59,983 nt of DNA from contig JAGBFB010000022.1 of the NCBI GenBank assembly GCA_017936665.1, positions 1 to 59,983 of the forward strand, written 5' to 3'. The notes beneath the pieces are model-generated. The model was not told the DNA's origin and ran no database searches. It saw nothing but the letters and a program-made list of their open reading frames with translations. Source of the DNA: Spirochaetaceae bacterium (GTDB lineage Bacteria > Spirochaetota > Spirochaetia > Treponematales > Treponemataceae). The position numbers and the translations under genes were made by a program. Of this stretch, positions 27,776-39,279 are shown in pieces. Positions within the stretch are counted from its first letter, which is position 1; each line of letters starts with the position of its first letter.

Positions 27776-29032
27776 CTAATATGATTTTGCTATACGAAAA
27801 CCTAAAGTATTATTTTTCAAATTTCCTAATAAAAGACAATAATCATTTATGCTACAACTGGAATTTAACCAGCTTCCACCCATAGCATAAAATTTATTTT
27901 CTACATTAGTATCTGTCCATTCAAAAACATTTCCAAATAAATCATAAATTCCAGCATAATTAGGTTTTAAGGAATTACAATCGAGTGTTTTTTCTGAATT
28001 ATAATTAGAATAATATAATAATTCATTTAATTTATCAGTACCAGAAAACTGATATGTGTAAATTTCTTTTTCAAAATTAAGAGATAAAGGTTCTGTACCT
28101 AAAAATATTTTTCTTGCAAAATTGCCACAACGTACAGAAAATTCCCATTCATAAATAGACGGTAAACGATACCCTGTATTATTTTTTAATATAGAACAGT
28201 TCATTATAACTGAACTTTGAGAAGAATCCCGTAAAACTTCTTTTGTAGATGAATTTACATAACATGGAGTAAAATTACACATTTCACTTAAAGCATTACA
28301 CCAAACTCTTGCGTCACACAAGCTAATACTAGTTACAGGTTCATTTGTACCTTGGTAATCCTGCCCTACGTTTCTTTCAGAACCTTCTGTGCCTAGATTT
28401 TGAAACAAATATTTTTTTGTACCACGTTCATCACTTGTTGCCCAAGATAAAACCTCTTGCCATATTTTATAAGAAACTTCTGAACAGGAAATTAAATAAG
28501 GTTCTAAGGTAATAGTATTTTGTTCTATAAATGAAGTAGTAATAAGACCACCAGAACTAACAGAACTATTTAGAGTAAGACTTTCATTTAATGGACAAAA
28601 AAAATCAAAGTTATTTTCTTTTTCTTTTACAAGAATTGTAAAAACTTGTGATTTATTTTCTTTACTTACTATGATGTTTTGTAATCCTGATTCTTTTTTT
28701 ATAGTTGTAATATTTAAATCTGCAAAATTGTTTGAACTTTCATCAACTACAGAATAATCTGAATAACTAGAAGTTACTTGCATACCATCAAGACAAATAG
28801 AACTTACTATTTTTTTTGTATCTGCCCTATACAAAATATCATTTTCTAAATAATACTCAAGACAATTTGGTAAAGAAGTAATTTGAAAAGTAGAAAGAGT
28901 AACTTCATCACTAGGTTCAGTTTGATTAGTTTTTTGTTCACCCTTAAAAACATCAACAAAACTTGGCACATCCAAATTACAAGAAATGAGAAAGATTGAA
29001 AATATAGCTAGAAAAAAGTGTTGTGGTTTCAT
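27776..29032 (-). CDS. Lipoprotein with SUMF1/formylglycine-generating-enzyme fold
   Basis: 418 residues. Signal peptide with lipobox LISC, lipidated Cys18. Residues 45-150 may be a small beta domain similar to those in the neighbour's N-terminus. Residues 165-418 show the FGE-sulfatase/C-type-lectin-like fold: EVSYKIWQEVLSWAT, NEPVTSISLCDARVWCNALSE, GYRLPSIYEWEFSVRCG, GIYDLFGNVFEWT, MGGSWLN, and terminal LGFRIAKSY. Most bacterial lipoproteins of this type are binding or structural proteins, not sulfatase activators. It directly follows the 1801-residue lipoprotein, with adjacent stop and start, so the two are probably co-expressed on the surface. Confidence 0.88.
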   Translation of the reverse strand: MKPQHFFLAIFSIFLISCNLDVPSFVDVFKGEQKTNQTEPSDEVTLSTFQITSLPNCLEYYLENDILYRADTKKIVSSICLDGMQVTSSYSDYSVVDESSNNFADLNITTIKKESGLQNIIVSKENKSQVFTILVKEKENNFDFFCPLNESLTLNSSVSSGGLITTSFIEQNTITLEPYLISCSEVSYKIWQEVLSWATSDERGTKKYLFQNLGTEGSERNVGQDYQGTNEPVTSISLCDARVWCNALSEMCNFTPCYVNSSTKEVLRDSSQSSVIMNCSILKNNTGYRLPSIYEWEFSVRCGNFARKIFLGTEPLSLNFEKEIYTYQFSGTDKLNELLYYSNYNSEKTLDCNSLKPNYAGIYDLFGNVFEWTDTNVENKFYAMGGSWLNSSCSINDYCLLLGNLKNNTLGFRIAKSY

Positions 29033-32000
29033 TTATTGTTGATATCTTCCTAATACAGTATCTGATCCTGATAAATCACAATTTCTTGTAATTATACAAT
29101 TAGCTTGAGAACTAATTCTTGAATTATTTGGTGATAAAACATATAAGGAACCTCCTGATATGTTTAACTTACAATTAGAACCGACATTAAATCCGCATGG
29201 AGGAATACGCCATTCCACATCATTCATACCTGCTTTTATATCAATTTCGCAGTCTGTTAAAATTAATTCTCCAGAATAGGGATCAGCTTCCAAGTAAAAA
29301 CCTACAGACGAATCTATATTTATCGTTGAATTATTAAATTGTCCATAAACTCTAAAAAAACCAACCCTAGTCGGCGATCTAACACTTAAGTACGAATTAT
29401 CTACAATAAAATTTGTAGTAGTCCAACCATTGAAAGAGTCAGAATTAGAATCTATATTAATTTTTGAACCAGATACAGAAAAAACAGGACCCGTGACATC
29501 TATTCCAAACCCAGAAGAATTAATATCTATGACACAATTTTCTATTACAGCAGAAGTCTTAAAACTACAAATAGCATTGCTTATTATAGACGGTGGAGAA
29601 TAAGGCGACGAAACCGTAATATGTAATGTAGATTCTATTATACTATAATTTTTTGATGCATAAAAGCCACAAATTTCTTTGTCAGATGAATACAAATTTA
29701 TATCAAATTTAGAATTTTCTATTTTTAATCCAGCTTGATTAGCATCAAAACCACCGCTGGCACATTTATCTATTATAAATTCACAATTTTTTATTGTAGA
29801 ACCATTTGTTCCATTTTCAAAAGCAACACAGCTCGAATTAGTATATTCATCACCTGTAAAATTAAATTTTGCATTAGAAATTGTAGCATCACAGCCAACA
29901 CACATCGGGGAATATTTGCCTGCATGTTCAAAATTAAATGTTCCTCCATTTATAGAAAGACTACCTTCTGCGTTAAAGCTATTTCCTCCTTGTGTGGATT
30001 TTAAATTAAATGTTCCACCGTTTATGGATAAATTGCCTGTAGACAGTAAAATATTGGTTCCATCCGTAGATGTTAAATTTATGTTTGAATTATTTATTGA
30101 CAAAACACCATTAGACAAATTTGAAATTGATTTCATATTTGGTGCTGTACAATTATTAATTGTAAGATTTGCTCTATTTGAAAGACCTAAATTTACAGTG
30201 CTATTATTTATATTTATATATCCAGATACAAAGCGTAAGGTATAATTTGCACCAAAAGTAAAATTACCTTGTGGTAAACTGTATGTTTGTGTACAAGGTT
30301 CAAAAATACAATTATTAAAAACTAATTCACCAGAAGAATAGAAATAACAAAAATTTTCATAATTAAATTCTGTATAAGGAAATTCAGTTGCAGAAATATA
30401 TTTATATCCTCTGTTAGAATTTTTGTTTATTACTTTGTTGTTTTCATATTCTAAAATATTACCTGCCCTAATATATTCAAGATCTTCAAAAGTATTATTT
30501 TTTATAGAACTATTATCACCTAAAAATAAAAAACATCCAGTTCCAAAATAATTTTCTTCAATATCAATGTCTTGACCATCGTGGATAGAAAATTCACAAA
30601 GATTTCCAAAAGTATTATTTTTTATCTCAGCATTATTAAAATCAACATTGTCATCAGTCGCTATAAGAGCAAATGGATGTCCTACGATAAAGTTTTCTGT
30701 TGTTCTTATTAAAGTTGTATCAAAATCATTTCCTTCTAAAACTAAATTTTTTGTAGAAAATACAATGCAATAACTGTCATCTTCTTCTAACATATAAAAA
30801 TCTGAATTTTTTATAGTTAAATTTTCACAACCAAAACCTATATAACCACCGCCAATAAAAATTGAATTTTCAATATAAAAATCTTTTGGTTTAATATCCA
30901 AATTACGTGCATAAATTTGCGAAAAACAAAGATTTCCACCATCCGATTTTATGGTTGAGTTTTTTATAAACGAATTTCCATCATAACTAACACCAGCCAA
31001 AGATTCTCTATCCCATTGCCACTCTCCAACAGTAATTTCAGAATCTTCTACTTGAATTATATAGGATGTATCAACTGTTTCTGCTGTTAAAGTTGAATCT
31101 TTCATGATTAGATTTTCAGCAGAAAGAGCACCGTATACGTTATTTATAGCTATTAAATCTAAATTTGAATTTATTAAATTTAAATCTTCATCAAATGAAT
31201 ATATACATGAGTTTTCAAATGTTGTATTTTCTATTGTTGCACCATAACCTGAAACAGAAATATTATTAAAATATGAATTATTTATATGTACAGAAGCACT
31301 TCTATCAATTACATTCACCATTTCAACATACGCTTCCCAAAATAGATGAGGAGCCTCTTCCTCTACAGTTGAATAGTTAATATCATGAATGTCATACATT
31401 TCATTGTTAAATACACAAGATTCAATTATATAATTATTACTTACAGTGTTTAATGCACAATTGGTTTTAGTATTTTTTATAGTAACATCACCTTTATGGT
31501 AAAGCATTGAAAATCCATAAGAATTTGTTACATTTATTTTGGTATTTTCTATTATTGCATTATTCGATGTATTAATAGACCCTGATAAAAGATTATCTTT
31601 TTCTGAATAATAAAATCTACAAGATGAATTTTGCGTTTTTATATTAAACAAACAATTATTAATTTCTAAAGAATGATTTTGAGTTGCTTCTTTTGGATTT
31701 AAAACTTTTGTAATATCCAAAAAAGTTTCATTTGCACTTTGTTCCAAATCAATATCAAATCCGTCTATTGTAAAAGTTCCTGTAAAATTTTCATTTGCAT
31801 AAAACAAAGATTCTTCATTTGAAGAAAATGGTGTTCTTTTTAAAACTGTATGATTTATTAAATTGTTATCTGTATCAACTTCACGCTCATCGATAGAACT
31901 TTCAGTTCCTTCAAATCCACCACGCAAAATTAAATTTGATCTTACATTAAAACCATTTATTTTATTCAAAATTGGTTCATATTCATCAGCTGTAATCCAA

Positions 32001-34438
32001 ATTTCTTGTAAAATAGAATCATCAACAGAGTTTGCTTTTTCTAAAGCTAAATCCAAATTTATAAAAGCGTCTTGCCAACTTGTTCCGTTGTTTCTACCAA
32101 TTGCATTTATATCAACAAAAATAATATCACCACTTTCTTGTAAAGAAACAATATAATCTTTTGTATATAATCCGTTTACACTTGTTACAGTATAAGTTAC
32201 AGGACTAGAAAAATCTTGAGATGAAATTCCACTAGTTTGAATTTGTCCATTTACAGATACAGTTCCATTAGATGTAAAAGTTGGAGTTAATAAAGTTCCT
32301 TTATTTGATCCTGTTCCATAAGGCATAAAAGCAAAAATACTTTTTGTTCTTTCTGTAACGGTTGCTTGAACATCTTCATTTAATGAAGAATTATTTTGAG
32401 TTTTAAAACCAAAATCTAAAATATCACAACTACTTGAACTATCTTTTACAAAAGAAACATCTACCCTATATCGCTTTGTAATTTTTTCTTCTGTTCCTGT
32501 TGTTACAACATAATAAGTTGTATATTTAAAACTTTCTTCTGAAAAACCTGATGTTTGAGTTATACTATTACAAGTTACTTCTCCATTTGATGCAAAAACA
32601 GGAGTTAAATTGTAGGGAGGTTTTTCGGTAAAATATAAAATCTCACATCTTATAGTATTAGTTAAATCGTCAATTGTTGCTACAGCATCTTTTGATAAAT
32701 CTTTATTTAAATAAACAGGAAATTCAAAAGAAGTAATAACAGGCTCTTCTGTAACAATTTGTACAAATTCAATACTTATATCATAAAGGCGACAATACAA
32801 ACCATTTTTTGCAGTACAAAGGTATTGAGTTTTATATTCAAAATTTTCTGATGTTACACTAGAAATAATTTCTTCACCATTTTTTGTAACGATTCCCGGA
32901 GTAATAAAATCTGAAATAAGTTGATACGGAGGAATTTCGCCTTCGTACATAACGGTTGCAGAAATAAATCCTGTATCGCCTTCATTGTAAATTGAAGCAA
33001 TTACAGTTTTCTTTATATCAGTATTTTTTGATTTATAAAATCTAAAATCAGTAATACTTCTTATTGAATCAGGATCTAGTTCTATTGGGCAATGTAACTG
33101 ATATTCTTTACTAACGTTAGAATTATAAACTGTAATTGTACATGTTCTTACAGATTCAGAAAAAGGAATTTTTGTTTCGCCAGAAATTAATTCTGTTTCA
33201 TTTCCTGATGGCATAGTAAAAGTAATTCTATCACCTTCAAAAACCACATGAGGAATTAATTCATAATCTATTTCCATATCCATTGGATATAAACAAGTTA
33301 CATCAATTTGATCTGTATCAACTGAAGATTTTGAATCTTTAATTAAATAAGGATTTGTTGTTTTTGAAAATGCAATATTTAAAAGTTTAGGTTGGATATT
33401 TTTTATTTTACAATTAATGTAATATATTTTTACATCTTTGTTAGCAGAGATTACTGCAAAATAAACTTGTGTGTCATAAAAATTTATTGGCATATCTAAA
33501 CTAGGATATGTGATATTATCAAGTTTTTTTATAAAACTATAAATATATTTTTCAACATCAGAAGTTGTACTATATCCTGAGTAAAACTGTAATATTTGTT
33601 CAAAAGACAAACCTAAACTTAATAAATAATTTTGTGTAAGAGGTAGAACATTTGCACCTTCAGAAACAGTTACAATTGGTAAAATTTCTTTTAAATTTGT
33701 ATTTTCATCAACTTCAAAAGTAACAATACCAGAATATGGAACACTATCACCTAAATTGTTTGAATCTTGTATAATTTCATTATTTCCACCTGTTACAGTA
33801 TGTTCAATTATTGGTTCTGCAATTTGAGATGGAACTTCAAAACTTAAAATTAGATTTTCATAATCTTTCTCTTGAGAATCATCATTATTGTTATCATTTT
33901 GATTTTCATCATTATTGTTATTATTATCTTGACTAGAACTCTCTTTTTTTACGGTTACTGTATAAAACTTATAATTACCTTGACCTGAAATTACTATAAA
34001 AGGTACAGGAGTTGTAAAATCAATAGGCATTTCTAATTTTGGAATTTTAATTCCATCATTTTCTAAAACCAAATTTAAAAACCATGTTTTAAAAGTTCCA
34101 TTTTTATTTGCTGTATACATATCTAATGCCAAGGTAAGTAAATCTTTTTCTGGAAAAATTTTATTTAAGTAATTCAAAGTACCTGGAACAATTTGTGCCT
34201 TTTCTGAAATTTTTACAATAGGAATTAAACTTGTAACATCAGTTTCTGCTGGAACTATAATTGTAATGTTATTATTTGAATCAGGAGTTTGTAAAACAGA
34301 ACGACTTCCGTTTGTATATTCAAGTTGAAAATTTATTATTTCACCTTCTTGTGGAGGAATGATGTTATGAAAAAAATTAGTACAAGAAGAAAATAATAAT
34401 ACTAAAAAAAATAAATTTGCAATTTTAAATCTTTTCAT
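29033..34438 (-). CDS. Giant surface lipoprotein: beta-sandwich repeats plus parallel beta-helix
   Basis: 1801 residues. Lipobox FSSC, Cys19. Residues 25-180 and 195-350 are two related domains (each with IVKISEKA/IVTVSEGANV and a closing xPFIVISGQGNYKF-like strand), separated by an Asn/Asp/Gln run. Several DUF5018-like beta domains follow to about 775. A VDINAIGRNNGTSWQDAF segment then marks the start of a right-handed beta-helix filling the rest, with dozens of N-N-S/I-E-N-T turns. The architecture is that of an adhesin or polymorphic-membrane-type protein. AGGAG precedes the ATG, 9 bases after the OmpA gene. Confidence 0.88.
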   Translation of the reverse strand: MKRFKIANLFFLVLLFSSCTNFFHNIIPPQEGEIINFQLEYTNGSRSVLQTPDSNNNITIIVPAETDVTSLIPIVKISEKAQIVPGTLNYLNKIFPEKDLLTLALDMYTANKNGTFKTWFLNLVLENDGIKIPKLEMPIDFTTPVPFIVISGQGNYKFYTVTVKKESSSQDNNNNNDENQNDNNNDDSQEKDYENLILSFEVPSQIAEPIIEHTVTGGNNEIIQDSNNLGDSVPYSGIVTFEVDENTNLKEILPIVTVSEGANVLPLTQNYLLSLGLSFEQILQFYSGYSTTSDVEKYIYSFIKKLDNITYPSLDMPINFYDTQVYFAVISANKDVKIYYINCKIKNIQPKLLNIAFSKTTNPYLIKDSKSSVDTDQIDVTCLYPMDMEIDYELIPHVVFEGDRITFTMPSGNETELISGETKIPFSESVRTCTITVYNSNVSKEYQLHCPIELDPDSIRSITDFRFYKSKNTDIKKTVIASIYNEGDTGFISATVMYEGEIPPYQLISDFITPGIVTKNGEEIISSVTSENFEYKTQYLCTAKNGLYCRLYDISIEFVQIVTEEPVITSFEFPVYLNKDLSKDAVATIDDLTNTIRCEILYFTEKPPYNLTPVFASNGEVTCNSITQTSGFSEESFKYTTYYVVTTGTEEKITKRYRVDVSFVKDSSSSCDILDFGFKTQNNSSLNEDVQATVTERTKSIFAFMPYGTGSNKGTLLTPTFTSNGTVSVNGQIQTSGISSQDFSSPVTYTVTSVNGLYTKDYIVSLQESGDIIFVDINAIGRNNGTSWQDAFINLDLALEKANSVDDSILQEIWITADEYEPILNKINGFNVRSNLILRGGFEGTESSIDEREVDTDNNLINHTVLKRTPFSSNEESLFYANENFTGTFTIDGFDIDLEQSANETFLDITKVLNPKEATQNHSLEINNCLFNIKTQNSSCRFYYSEKDNLLSGSINTSNNAIIENTKINVTNSYGFSMLYHKGDVTIKNTKTNCALNTVSNNYIIESCVFNNEMYDIHDINYSTVEEEAPHLFWEAYVEMVNVIDRSASVHINNSYFNNISVSGYGATIENTTFENSCIYSFDEDLNLINSNLDLIAINNVYGALSAENLIMKDSTLTAETVDTSYIIQVEDSEITVGEWQWDRESLAGVSYDGNSFIKNSTIKSDGGNLCFSQIYARNLDIKPKDFYIENSIFIGGGYIGFGCENLTIKNSDFYMLEEDDSYCIVFSTKNLVLEGNDFDTTLIRTTENFIVGHPFALIATDDNVDFNNAEIKNNTFGNLCEFSIHDGQDIDIEENYFGTGCFLFLGDNSSIKNNTFEDLEYIRAGNILEYENNKVINKNSNRGYKYISATEFPYTEFNYENFCYFYSSGELVFNNCIFEPCTQTYSLPQGNFTFGANYTLRFVSGYININNSTVNLGLSNRANLTINNCTAPNMKSISNLSNGVLSINNSNINLTSTDGTNILLSTGNLSINGGTFNLKSTQGGNSFNAEGSLSINGGTFNFEHAGKYSPMCVGCDATISNAKFNFTGDEYTNSSCVAFENGTNGSTIKNCEFIIDKCASGGFDANQAGLKIENSKFDINLYSSDKEICGFYASKNYSIIESTLHITVSSPYSPPSIISNAICSFKTSAVIENCVIDINSSGFGIDVTGPVFSVSGSKINIDSNSDSFNGWTTTNFIVDNSYLSVRSPTRVGFFRVYGQFNNSTINIDSSVGFYLEADPYSGELILTDCEIDIKAGMNDVEWRIPPCGFNVGSNCKLNISGGSLYVLSPNNSRISSQANCIITRNCDLSGSDTVLGRYQQ

Positions 34439-35644: not shown

Positions 35645-35699
35645 TTGTATTTACTCCATTAAAAACTTATTGATCAATTAAAAAAATTGTCTAAATTTT

Positions 35700-35727
35700 A
35701 TTATAAATGAGTACCCCCCCCGGTCAA
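35700..35727 (-). promoter_or_regulatory. Poly-G promoter of the surface operon, probable phase switch
   Basis: On the minus strand TTGACC (35727-35722) and consensus TATAAT (35705-35700) are separated by 16 bases, made of eight G (35721-35714) then TACTCATT. Losing or gaining one G changes the spacer to 15 or 17. In T. pallidum poly-G length in promoters modulates subfamily II tpr genes. An eight-base G run is very unusual in this AT-rich sequence. Confidence 0.78.
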
Positions 35728-35750
35728 CTAGGGAATGCAAATATTTTAAA

Positions 35751-35787: not shown

Positions 35788-37539
35788 TTACGCAAATTTA
35801 AGTCTATTTACAATATTGTGTAATTCTTCACAAGTTTTGGTTATAGTTTGATTTAATTCTGAATTATTTTCGATACTAATTGAAATTTGTCGTAAAGTTA
35901 CCAAAATCTGTTCAAAGGCTGTTGCTTGTTGGCCAATAATTAAACTTATATCCGCAGAAGATTCAGCTGTAACTTCAGCAGAACTTTTTATATCTGCAAA
36001 ATTTTTCTTCAATTTAGTCGATAAGTCACATCCTTCAAGTATTTTTTCGGTTCCACCTTCAGAAGCAATAATTAAGTTATCCGATGAATGTTGAATTTCA
36101 GTTATTTTTTCACGAATTTCTTTTATAGATTCTGTAATTCCATCTGCTAAACGTCTAATTTCATTTGCTACAATATGAAAGTTTTTTCCAGCCTCCCCTG
36201 CACTTACCGCTTCAAGTTCTGCATTTAAAGCAATTACTTTTGTTTGGTCTGCAATTCCATTAATGATTGTAACAATCTCCCAAATATTTTCGATTTTTTC
36301 ACTTAGCAATTTTATACCAGAAATTGTATCAACATTGGCATTAGTAATCTCATCCATTTTTGCAAGATTAGTTGCAAGAATTTCAACACCTTCTTGAACA
36401 TCTAAAGCAGTTTTATTGGCAACTAAAGCAACTTCATTTATGCGTTTAGAAATACTTTGTGAAAGTTTATCAGATTCTTCCATGGTTGTAACAATATTTT
36501 TTACAGAATTTGATTGTTCTATAGAAATCGTTTCAACATTTCTAACAGATAACAATAAATCTTCATTTGAGGATGAAACTTTTTGTGCAATACTGTTTGT
36601 GTTTTCAAAAATATTTTTAAATAATGAAATTGTAGAATTTACCCAAAACACATTATAAGATAATTCATTTGTAAAATCACAGGGCAATAAAGAAACAGAA
36701 TCTGCACCTTGAGTATTTATATTTTTAATTGCAATTCTCATTTCTTTTGCGTGTAACGAAATTTTATTAAAAAATAATATTGATAAAACAGAAATTAAAA
36801 ATAAGTGAATTGCAAAAATTAACAAAATTCTTAAAGAATTATTTAATGAATTTTGAGAATCAGTTTGTAAAAATGAATTAATTTCACTTGTAAATGATGA
36901 CCAAACAAGAAAAAACAATAAACCAAAAGAAATTACTAAAGGTACAAGAATGTAAAACACAAATAATTTTTTAATTGATAATCCATAACCAAATTTTTCA
37001 TATTCATCATTTGGTTTTATACCTTGAGCAACTAAAGGTTTTGCATAATTAGAACAAACTTTTTCTGCCATATCCAAAGTGAACAAACCAGAAATTGTTG
37101 AAGTAAAAATTGTAGCAACACAACCATAAATTAAATTTTTGAATTCAAACTTTCCTTGAAAATATAAAATGAAAATCCATAATATACAACCAACAAAAAA
37201 TAAAAGAAAAACTTGAAGTGAAATATAAAATGGAATTTTTAATAAATCTTTTAATAAATTTGTTCTATCAGCAACTGAAAAATAATTGTTATCATATTTC
37301 CAATCTTCAAATCTTTTAGATACAGAATTAGTTATCAAACGATTTGTTTGTGGTGCAATAATCGTTTGAATTACAAACATAATTAACATTCCATAAAGAA
37401 AAGAAATTGGAAATTGACTAAACTTTACACCAGCAAAACAAAAAATATATGGCATAACAATTATTCCAGAAATTATATTTGGTAACAAACCAAACTTCAT
37501 CATTTGTTTTTCAAAAGATTTATCAAAAGTAATTTTCAT
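35788..37539 (-). CDS. Methyl-accepting chemotaxis protein with six-TM N-terminus (second of pair)
   Basis: 583 residues. Residues 1-265 contain about six hydrophobic segments (near 18-38, 45-60, 105-130, 137-160, 193-217, 238-262) and no periplasmic sensor domain. There is no obvious HAMP. Residues 300-583 are the cytoplasmic signalling coiled coil with a hairpin tip: QTKVIALNAELEAVSAGEAG and FHIVANEIRRLADG. Relative to the usual tip (ALNAAIEAARAGE) several positions differ. It is a paralogue of the next gene, 9 bases apart, last in the operon. A membrane-embedded or intracellular signal is likely. Confidence 0.9.
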   Translation of the reverse strand: MKITFDKSFEKQMMKFGLLPNIISGIIVMPYIFCFAGVKFSQFPISFLYGMLIMFVIQTIIAPQTNRLITNSVSKRFEDWKYDNNYFSVADRTNLLKDLLKIPFYISLQVFLLFFVGCILWIFILYFQGKFEFKNLIYGCVATIFTSTISGLFTLDMAEKVCSNYAKPLVAQGIKPNDEYEKFGYGLSIKKLFVFYILVPLVISFGLLFFLVWSSFTSEINSFLQTDSQNSLNNSLRILLIFAIHLFLISVLSILFFNKISLHAKEMRIAIKNINTQGADSVSLLPCDFTNELSYNVFWVNSTISLFKNIFENTNSIAQKVSSSNEDLLLSVRNVETISIEQSNSVKNIVTTMEESDKLSQSISKRINEVALVANKTALDVQEGVEILATNLAKMDEITNANVDTISGIKLLSEKIENIWEIVTIINGIADQTKVIALNAELEAVSAGEAGKNFHIVANEIRRLADGITESIKEIREKITEIQHSSDNLIIASEGGTEKILEGCDLSTKLKKNFADIKSSAEVTAESSADISLIIGQQATAFEQILVTLRQISISIENNSELNQTITKTCEELHNIVNRLKFA

Positions 37540-37548
37540 AATTTTTCC

Positions 37549-39279
37549 TTAAACAACTGTTTCTTTTAATTCCGCTAATGAATCAGAAATCTTTTGCAGT
37601 TGTAAAGACAAATCATTAACAGATTGAATTGAAGTTGCAGAAGATTCAATTCCAGCTGAAATCTGCTTAAGAGTAATTACAATTTGTTCAAAAGAAATTG
37701 TTTGCTGTTCGATAAAACCTTTAATATCATTTGCAGAAGAAACTGTAACTTCAGAAGAATTTTTAATATTATTAAATTTATCTTCTAGTTTTACAGAAAG
37801 TTGGAATCCTTCATTGATTTTTTTTGTTCCACCTTCTGAAGCTAAAATTAATGAATCAGAAGAATGTTGTATATCAGAAATTCTTTGCTTAATATCTTTT
37901 GTAGATTCCATTGTGTTATCTGCTAATCTTCTTATTTCATTTGCAACAATATGAAAGTTTTTACCTGCTTCCCCTGCACTTGCAGCTTCAAGCTCTGCAT
38001 TAAAAGCAATAATTTTTGTTTGATCTGCAATACCACTAATTATATTTACGATATACCAAATATTTTCAATTTGTTCATTTAATTTTTTTATTTCATCAAT
38101 GATAGTAATATTTGCATCTGTAATTTCATTCATCTTACTTATACTTTCAGAAACAGTATTAAATCCATCTTGTACATCCTGTAAGTTTTTATTTGCAATT
38201 TCATTTACATAAGTAATTTTATTACTAATATCTTTAGATAACTTATCTGACTCTTCCATTGAACTTACAATTTGTCTTACACCAGTTGATTGTTCAACCG
38301 AAACAGAGGAATTTTGAGTAGAAATTACAACAAGGTTTTTTACACTATCTGCAATTTCGTTTCCAATAGTTGCAGCCTTTTTTAAAACATCAGCAAATTG
38401 AGAAGTATTTTTATTTATCAAATGAATATTGTAAGAAAATTCATTTGCCAAATCTGTTGGAACAAAATAACTATCTTGTAAATTATTTGATGTAGTATTT
38501 TTTATTAAAGCATCACGCATTTCATAAATATATCTTAAGAATCTAATTCCAAAAACAATTGCCAATGAAATACAAATTATTGCATTTATAATTATTACAA
38601 TTGCAATATCAAACATTAAAATATTTTCTTTAATACTTAATTCTTTAAATACAAACATAAATGTAGAAAGACTACTTAAAATTGTTGGAATACAAATAAA
38701 TGTATAAAAATAATTTTTTATTGAAAAACCAAAAAAGTTTTTCTTATCAACGATTGATGAATCAACACCTTCGAAAATTAATTCAAGGGCATATTTTGAG
38801 CAAACTTTTTCTGCACATAAAATTCCAGCAACAGATGCAATATAAGCAGAATAAACACAAGTGAATAAAATAAAAACAAATGTAATTAAAGAAACTTTTA
38901 CAACAAAATAAAAATACAATGCCCAAATTATTGTTCCACCTCCAAAAACAACCATAACAGATTTTCCAACATGTACAGGACAATGCATTAAATCTGCTAA
39001 AAGATTAGTTCTACTTTTTTCGTCTAAACCATTTTCTTTCCAGTCAATAATTCTTAAAGAAAGTTTTCTTGAGGAATTAGCATTAGTAAAAGGACCTAAA
39101 ACAAATTGCATTAAAAGATAAAGTACAATTCCTGCAATACCTGCATCTAAAACTTCTTGACCAGTAATGTTTACAAAGAAAATTACATACAAAATAAAAA
39201 CAGCAACAGCAGAAAAATTTGGAATTTTTCCTGAAGTCATAATTTCTTGTTCAAAAGTTTTTTCTTTTTTTTGTTTCAT
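37549..39279 (-). CDS. Methyl-accepting chemotaxis protein with six-TM N-terminus (first of pair)
   Basis: 576 residues, same design as its neighbour: polytopic N-terminal region (about 1-265) carrying a shared cytoplasmic-loop motif, here SRTNLLADL and there DRTNLLKDL, then a signalling domain with tip QTKIIAFNAELEAASAGEAG and FHIVANEIRRLADNT. The pair clearly arose by duplication. The ends lack a C-terminal CheR-tethering pentapeptide (terminal residues LKETVV). It lies 9 bases downstream of the adenylate cyclase gene, so receptors, kinase and cyclase are made together. Confidence 0.9.
   Translation of the reverse strand: MKQKKEKTFEQEIMTSGKIPNFSAVAVFILYVIFFVNITGQEVLDAGIAGIVLYLLMQFVLGPFTNANSSRKLSLRIIDWKENGLDEKSRTNLLADLMHCPVHVGKSVMVVFGGGTIIWALYFYFVVKVSLITFVFILFTCVYSAYIASVAGILCAEKVCSKYALELIFEGVDSSIVDKKNFFGFSIKNYFYTFICIPTILSSLSTFMFVFKELSIKENILMFDIAIVIIINAIICISLAIVFGIRFLRYIYEMRDALIKNTTSNNLQDSYFVPTDLANEFSYNIHLINKNTSQFADVLKKAATIGNEIADSVKNLVVISTQNSSVSVEQSTGVRQIVSSMEESDKLSKDISNKITYVNEIANKNLQDVQDGFNTVSESISKMNEITDANITIIDEIKKLNEQIENIWYIVNIISGIADQTKIIAFNAELEAASAGEAGKNFHIVANEIRRLADNTMESTKDIKQRISDIQHSSDSLILASEGGTKKINEGFQLSVKLEDKFNNIKNSSEVTVSSANDIKGFIEQQTISFEQIVITLKQISAGIESSATSIQSVNDLSLQLQKISDSLAELKETVV

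Follow-up and report, generated by a model that had tools for sequence, protein, structure and literature searches.

A poly-G spacer promoter upstream of an ompA operon, probably phase-variable, within a genome-wide set of lipoprotein-associated promoters in a treponeme-like bacterium

An operon for a predicted OmpA-type barrel protein and two lipoproteins is preceded by a promoter whose -35/-10 spacer contains a run of eight Gs (G8), and promoters of the same construction recur about 20 times in this genome, nearly always in front of lipoprotein genes. From these sequence comparisons, we consider it probable that the promoter is a contingency (phase-variable) promoter of a surface operon. The stretch of DNA analyzed here (59,983 bases, hereafter the window) belongs, as contig 11, to a genome of 2.58 Mb with 99.2% completeness.

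On the minus strand, positions 35727..35700 contain the promoter CCTAG-TTGACC-GGGGGGGG-TACTCATT-TATAAT (the CCTAG block adjoins on the 5' side), with a -35/-10 spacer of 16 bases (Table 1). A first-pass annotation made from the letters alone had described TTGACC and TATAAT 16 bases apart with G8 in the spacer and had stated that such runs are otherwise absent from the window; both observations hold, as G8 is the sole G/C run of ≥6 bases in the window, followed in length by three runs of 5. The base following TTGAC is C at this promoter, not G, which makes the tract one base shorter; G8 is at the short end of the range for slippage. The ompA transcription start site is predicted at about 35693. 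The TTGACC/TATAAT pair matches sigma-70 at 11/12, a score that puts it among the best two in the 27-36.5 kb region. We rejected sigma-70 matches by themselves as evidence, since they are no commoner than chance (71 vs 60.6 in shuffles); the window promoter stands above chance because the poly-G promoter recurs across the genome.

The promoter occupies a 143-base gap between ompA and a co-directional MCP gene (35788-37539). Two tandem MCP chemoreceptor genes (window positions 35788-39279) lie directly upstream in the same direction, without a convincing terminator between. No support emerged for a hairpin terminator separating the promoter from the MCP gene upstream of it (z -0.68), and the scan found none; therefore, read-through from the MCP gene into the operon is possible.

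Table 1. Features of the poly-G promoter and the operon downstream, in window coordinates.
Feature	Position	Strand	Remarks
CCTAG block adjoining -35 on its 5' side	35728..35732	-	CCTA(C/G) in sister promoters
-35 hexamer TTGACC	35722..35727	-	Sisters have TTGACG (G is part of the tract), one TTGACT
G8 homopolymer within the -35/-10 spacer, proposed slipped-strand switch	35714..35721	-	
Non-G spacer remainder TACTCATT	35706..35713	-	Same letters in twin promoter C40:28010
-10 hexamer TATAAT	35700..35705	-	
Likely ribosome-binding site GGAG	35654..35657	-	9 bases 5' of the ompA ATG
ompA-like gene, 398 aa	34448..35644	-	Signal peptide, predicted 8-stranded barrel, OmpA peptidoglycan-binding domain
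1801-aa lipoprotein gene	29033..34438	-	LFSSC lipobox, tandem Ig-like domains N-terminal, probable beta-helix beyond ~776
418-aa FGE/C-type-lectin-fold lipoprotein gene, last of the operon	27776..29032	-	Lipobox LISC at N-terminus

The three genes are separated by intergenic gaps of 9 bases (ompA/1801-aa) and 0 bases (1801-aa/418-aa), and their products are as first annotated: an OmpA protein (Pfam OmpA, E 9e-12), an 1801-residue lipoprotein, and an FGE lipoprotein (Pfam FGE-sulfatase, E 9e-20), the latter two with lipoboxes. The AF2 model of the OmpA protein (pLDDT 72, pTM 0.46) contains eight membrane-length strands at residues 38-206 followed by the OmpA C-domain, and Foldseek matched it to Pal/OmpA-C and to Ail/OmpX/OmpA barrels. 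This protein carries only a weak lipobox (NLSC); because the cysteine is absent in homologues, it is probably an outer-membrane barrel protein rather than a lipoprotein. Within the 1801-aa protein, which matched no family in Pfam or NCBIfam, the N-terminus consists of tandem Ig-like beta-sandwiches, and the beta-helix named in the annotation is probable, judged from the sequence after about residue 776. The predicted OmpA-type barrel and the two lipoproteins are putatively surface exposed.

Genome-wide, TTGACN-G8 with ≤1 mismatch occurs 19 times, compared with 0 in the backward control. The genome contains 35 distinct G runs of ≥8 bases, whereas Markov models of its own DNA predict 0.35-2.8; with only one G7 run and 13 G6 runs, the length distribution is bimodal. 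This excess and this gap set the long G runs apart as a class of their own, which is what maintenance and expansion, as opposed to chance, would produce. The single G7 run is itself such a promoter (C41:103337). Together with the 19 G8-G10 runs it brings the set to 20 promoters, each with the tract after TTGAC and a -10-like hexamer 7-9 bases later, although the -10 of one promoter counted (C29:58029) is ambiguous. The consensus of the set is CCTA(C/G)TTGAC-Gn-TATCRTGA-TANNNT. Immediately 5' of TTGAC stand, in order, T in 18/19 promoters, A in 19/19, and C or G in 19/19, and the palindrome-like TATCATGATA is present in several copies. The window promoter has a twin at C40:28010, CCTAGTTGAC-G9-TACTCATTTATAATAAAA, from which its block differs solely by C in place of the first G; the gene driven by the twin encodes a lipoprotein of 942 aa that has InlB-like repeats and two FGE matches. 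In a paralogous pair of promoters (C18:102897 and C18:103424), the flanks and the 5' UTR are identical as far as the start codon, and the tract is G8 in one copy and G9 in the other; no other comparison made here comes as close to an observed length change.

One of the few tracts that do not adjoin a surface-protein gene is at G000:C8:52388 (L047), where CCTAGT-G9 lies ~78 bases 5' of a GH3-family gene and, from its sequence, looks like a poly-G promoter that lost TTGAC. At G000:C22:83923 (L057), a gene for a C5-cytosine DNA methyltransferase (Pfam DNA_methylase, E 2e-84) has a G8 run 111 bases 5' of it; a phase-variable methylome is possible, but the run lies outside any recognizable promoter spacer. 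At G000:C22:540 (L055), a G10 run is upstream of a short ORF beginning MKITVKEFVKLDLTSLMQVNGG, which resembles a double-glycine leader peptide.

In the 19 G8-G10 promoters, the spacer is 16 bases long in 14, 15 in three, and 17 in two, at most two bases away from the 17 that is optimal in porA and tp0126. Because the number of Gs and the length of the non-G remainder are anticorrelated, albeit modestly (r -0.54, permutation p 0.02), it appears as if the total -35/-10 distance is the selected quantity. Ordinary non-poly-G TTGACA promoters in the same DNA have a spacer peak at 17-18, based on small numbers. The first-pass annotation had placed the window promoter one G short of the optimal 17 and suggested reduced expression; the arithmetic is right, but the suggestion is weak and does not follow, as 14 of the 19 promoters have the same spacer. 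Because 16 is the usual value of the promoter set, the operon cannot be read as turned down.

Each of the 20 promoters is followed, 35-120 bases downstream, by the start codon of a gene that has a ribosome-binding site and encodes a signal peptide. The first gene encodes a clear lipobox after 19 of the 20, the exception being the window promoter (ompA, then two lipoprotein genes), whereas a lipobox occurs in 26 of 256 other genes (10%; Fisher P about 4e-16) sampled from about 372 kb around the tracts and the window rather than from the whole genome. The lipobox script likewise scored 19/20: it counted the NLSC of the window OmpA and missed C7:51188, in which an FMGC lipobox is plain by eye. 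The targets are partly unrelated to one another, including lipocalin-like small lipoproteins, CotH kinase, FGE/InlB-repeat, and DUF6567 proteins. One lipoprotein family has five matches in this genome, all five with poly-G promoters, and we found no homologues of it in two genomes of the same genus.

Reading frames of surface proteins contain at least seven more G runs, four of them out of frame (C1:3875; C1:6880, FGE; C13:5382; C7:180557). In three (C7:209760 and C17:34425, which are amylase-like, and C29:2576), the run comes soon after the lipobox and is in frame. At C7:180557, the frame with the signal peptide and lipobox ends just past G10, and a different frame stays open for 1356 codons. 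Mixed in-frame and out-of-frame states within one genome are a prediction of translational phase variation. Another tract, the G9 at G000:C36:9778 (L063), is near the 3' end of an HDOD/HD-domain gene, where the frame stops 12 codons past the tract start; therefore, slippage there would alter the C-terminus alone.

We searched 274 genomes of the family with the OmpA protein, and 11 matched, including its own. A homologue of the 1801-aa protein is encoded directly after ompA in 9 of the 10 other genomes, and the FGE gene is third in six; in G258 the OmpA domain alone matched. In five genomes, the 5' end of ompA contains a run of Cs on the coding strand; the run is in frame with the start in G199 (C9), G044 (C10), and G039 (C9) and out of frame in G079 (C10) and G097 (C11, with ambiguous bases nearby). 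At the same site, the G243 contig terminates in a run of 49 Cs (C49), probably an artefact at the tract, and the G144 contig terminates near the ompA start. Judging from these tracts, the operon looks translationally switchable through ompA poly-C in two other genera (g14 and g16). In the species studied here, no tract lies inside ompA or elsewhere within a reading frame of the operon, and the promoter carries poly-G instead. Homopolymer control of the operon is not obligatory because G034 and G136 carry the operon with no G/C tract at it.

The two genomes of the same genus, which are 74% and 87% complete, have neither ompA nor the promoter motif. Within the family, TTGACN-G7 occurs 19 times here, ≤4 times elsewhere, and 0 times in those two incomplete genomes. 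A wider spacer pattern applied to 393 genomes of the phylum gave 20 matches here and ≤5 in any of the 392 others (G040, G508), with a nearly empty backward control. Some of the G040 and G508 sites also precede small lipoproteins; the lipoprotein association is not unique to this species, but its scale is.

Other layouts occur elsewhere in the family. In the g14 genomes G040 (L151-L155), G037, and G038, we observed TTGACA(N)-long poly-G-TATAAT, in which the tract directly adjoins the -10, and three of the five such sites in G040 precede small lipoproteins. The g14 sites TTGACAAAAC-Gn-TAGAAT (G13 in G037, G16 in G038) were considered as an orthologous length change and rejected, as the downstream genes differ. 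Several relatives (L078, L081, L091-L093, and similar) have a CTATACT-like -10 just before TTGAC(N)-poly-G; by position, these tracts would lie close to the start site, an arrangement that looks like the tpr type and not the spacer type.

The first-pass annotation's proposal of a phase-variable surface operon is strongly, though indirectly, supported because of the sister set, the bias toward surface proteins, the heterogeneity of tract length, and the poly-C at this operon in other genera. Slipped-strand mispairing at G8 would add or remove Gs, and the -35/-10 distance would become 15, 16, 17, or 18. The altered distance would change recruitment of RNA polymerase with the housekeeping sigma factor, and transcription of ompA, the 1801-aa adhesin-like lipoprotein gene, and the FGE lipoprotein gene would vary in a graded or on/off manner. 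With ~20 poly-G promoters and ≥7 coding tracts, a clonal population could come to display many combinations of surface proteins, which might be the selective reason for the arrangement. A bolder reading has two parts: a large part of the lipoprotein coat would be a combinatorial random-expression system, built from those promoters of one class and the coding tracts, and the operon's switch would have moved from translational poly-C to promoter spacing, with selection keeping switchability while the switch itself was replaced. On the joint claim we are evenly divided.

It is possible, though we think it unlikely, that two layers act at once, with a shared regulator setting the level of lipoprotein expression, the tract adding stochastic variation, and a spacer of 16 representing normal intermediate output. 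Conserved flanks around a heterogeneous tract, as well as a modal spacer of 16 and not 17, fit this arrangement; however, no regulator or binding site was identified, and the flanks may be just strong promoter elements or reflect common descent. Quite improbable is a fixed promoter or operator of a lipoprotein regulon, CCTA(C/G)TTGAC-Gn-TATCATGATA, bound by a regulator or a special sigma factor, in which the Gs are a structural spacer and no switch exists. Conservation extending past the hexamers to the upstream CCTA(C/G) and the palindrome-like element, the spacer held at 16 in most copies, and the action of Tp0262, a CRP homologue, on poly-G tpr promoters in T. pallidum (PMC7864442) would be in keeping with it, but the tract ranges from G7 to G10 among copies (including the two with identical flanks), poly-G also lies within the reading frames of this protein class, which require no operator, and poly-C lies inside ompA in other genera. 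Poly-G artefacts occur in two-colour sequencing, and in one relative a 49-base run at the ompA tract terminates the contig, but we give almost no credence to a chance G run or a sequencing or assembly artefact: chance is rejected by the run-length counts and the linkage to TTGAC, and because 20 tracts recur at the same place after TTGAC, nearly all before lipoproteins and with 0 backward-control matches, artefact is refuted as a general explanation and could survive for exact tract lengths alone.

In treponemes, most work on phase variation has concerned single loci of T. pallidum. Another treponeme-like species has what appears to be a genome-wide set of spacer-length switches dedicated to lipoproteins, and one operon carries homopolymer tracts in several genera at different levels, in the promoter or in the reading frame. 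Such a pattern suggests that heterogeneity of the ompA/adhesin/FGE operon is favoured by some pressure, whether from host immunity, phage, or another source. We found no account of a dispersed set of poly-G lipoprotein promoters, or of tracts at this operon, in the literature searched (subscription papers were outside the search). G and C tracts have been counted in cultivable treponemes, with 39-40 G in T. pedis; as far as consulted, that survey makes no mention of a promoter of this type (PMC8049484).

Among known systems, the annotation had pointed to the subfamily II tpr genes of T. pallidum. The tprE/G/J/L promoters are alike in having promoter poly-G for surface proteins of a treponeme; however, the poly-G of tprL (and of its paralogues, as reported) lies in the -10/start-site region and leaves the -35/-10 spacing unaltered (PMC7864442). 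The analogy is wrong on anatomy because the window tract is 5' of the -10, inside the spacer, and the tprL-type tract is outside it. The matching systems are T. pallidum tp0126, an OmpW homologue, and Neisseria meningitidis porA, as described in PMC7864442: in tp0126, poly-G lies between -35 and -10, and in porA, spacer poly-G gives distance-dependent transcription of a surface protein, each with a 17-nt optimum. The window promoter likewise has its homopolymer between recognizable -35 and -10 elements. It resembles tp0126 also in serving an outer-membrane protein gene within the family Treponemataceae, to which this genome probably belongs, but tp0126 is a single T. pallidum locus, whereas here a stereotyped promoter with the tract right after TTGAC is repeated ~20 times; porA, too, is one gene, in another phylum. 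The vlp lipoprotein family of Mycoplasma hyorhinis has poly-A in each promoter and switches on and off (PMC10502178, citing Citti and Wise 1995). The vlp family is similar in placing a homopolymer in the promoters of lipoprotein genes and differs in using poly-A for one lipoprotein family, whereas the set reported here uses poly-G at dispersed loci for unrelated lipoprotein families. The mechanism is already known; what is new is its lipoprotein-dedicated expansion and the swap between promoter and reading frame.
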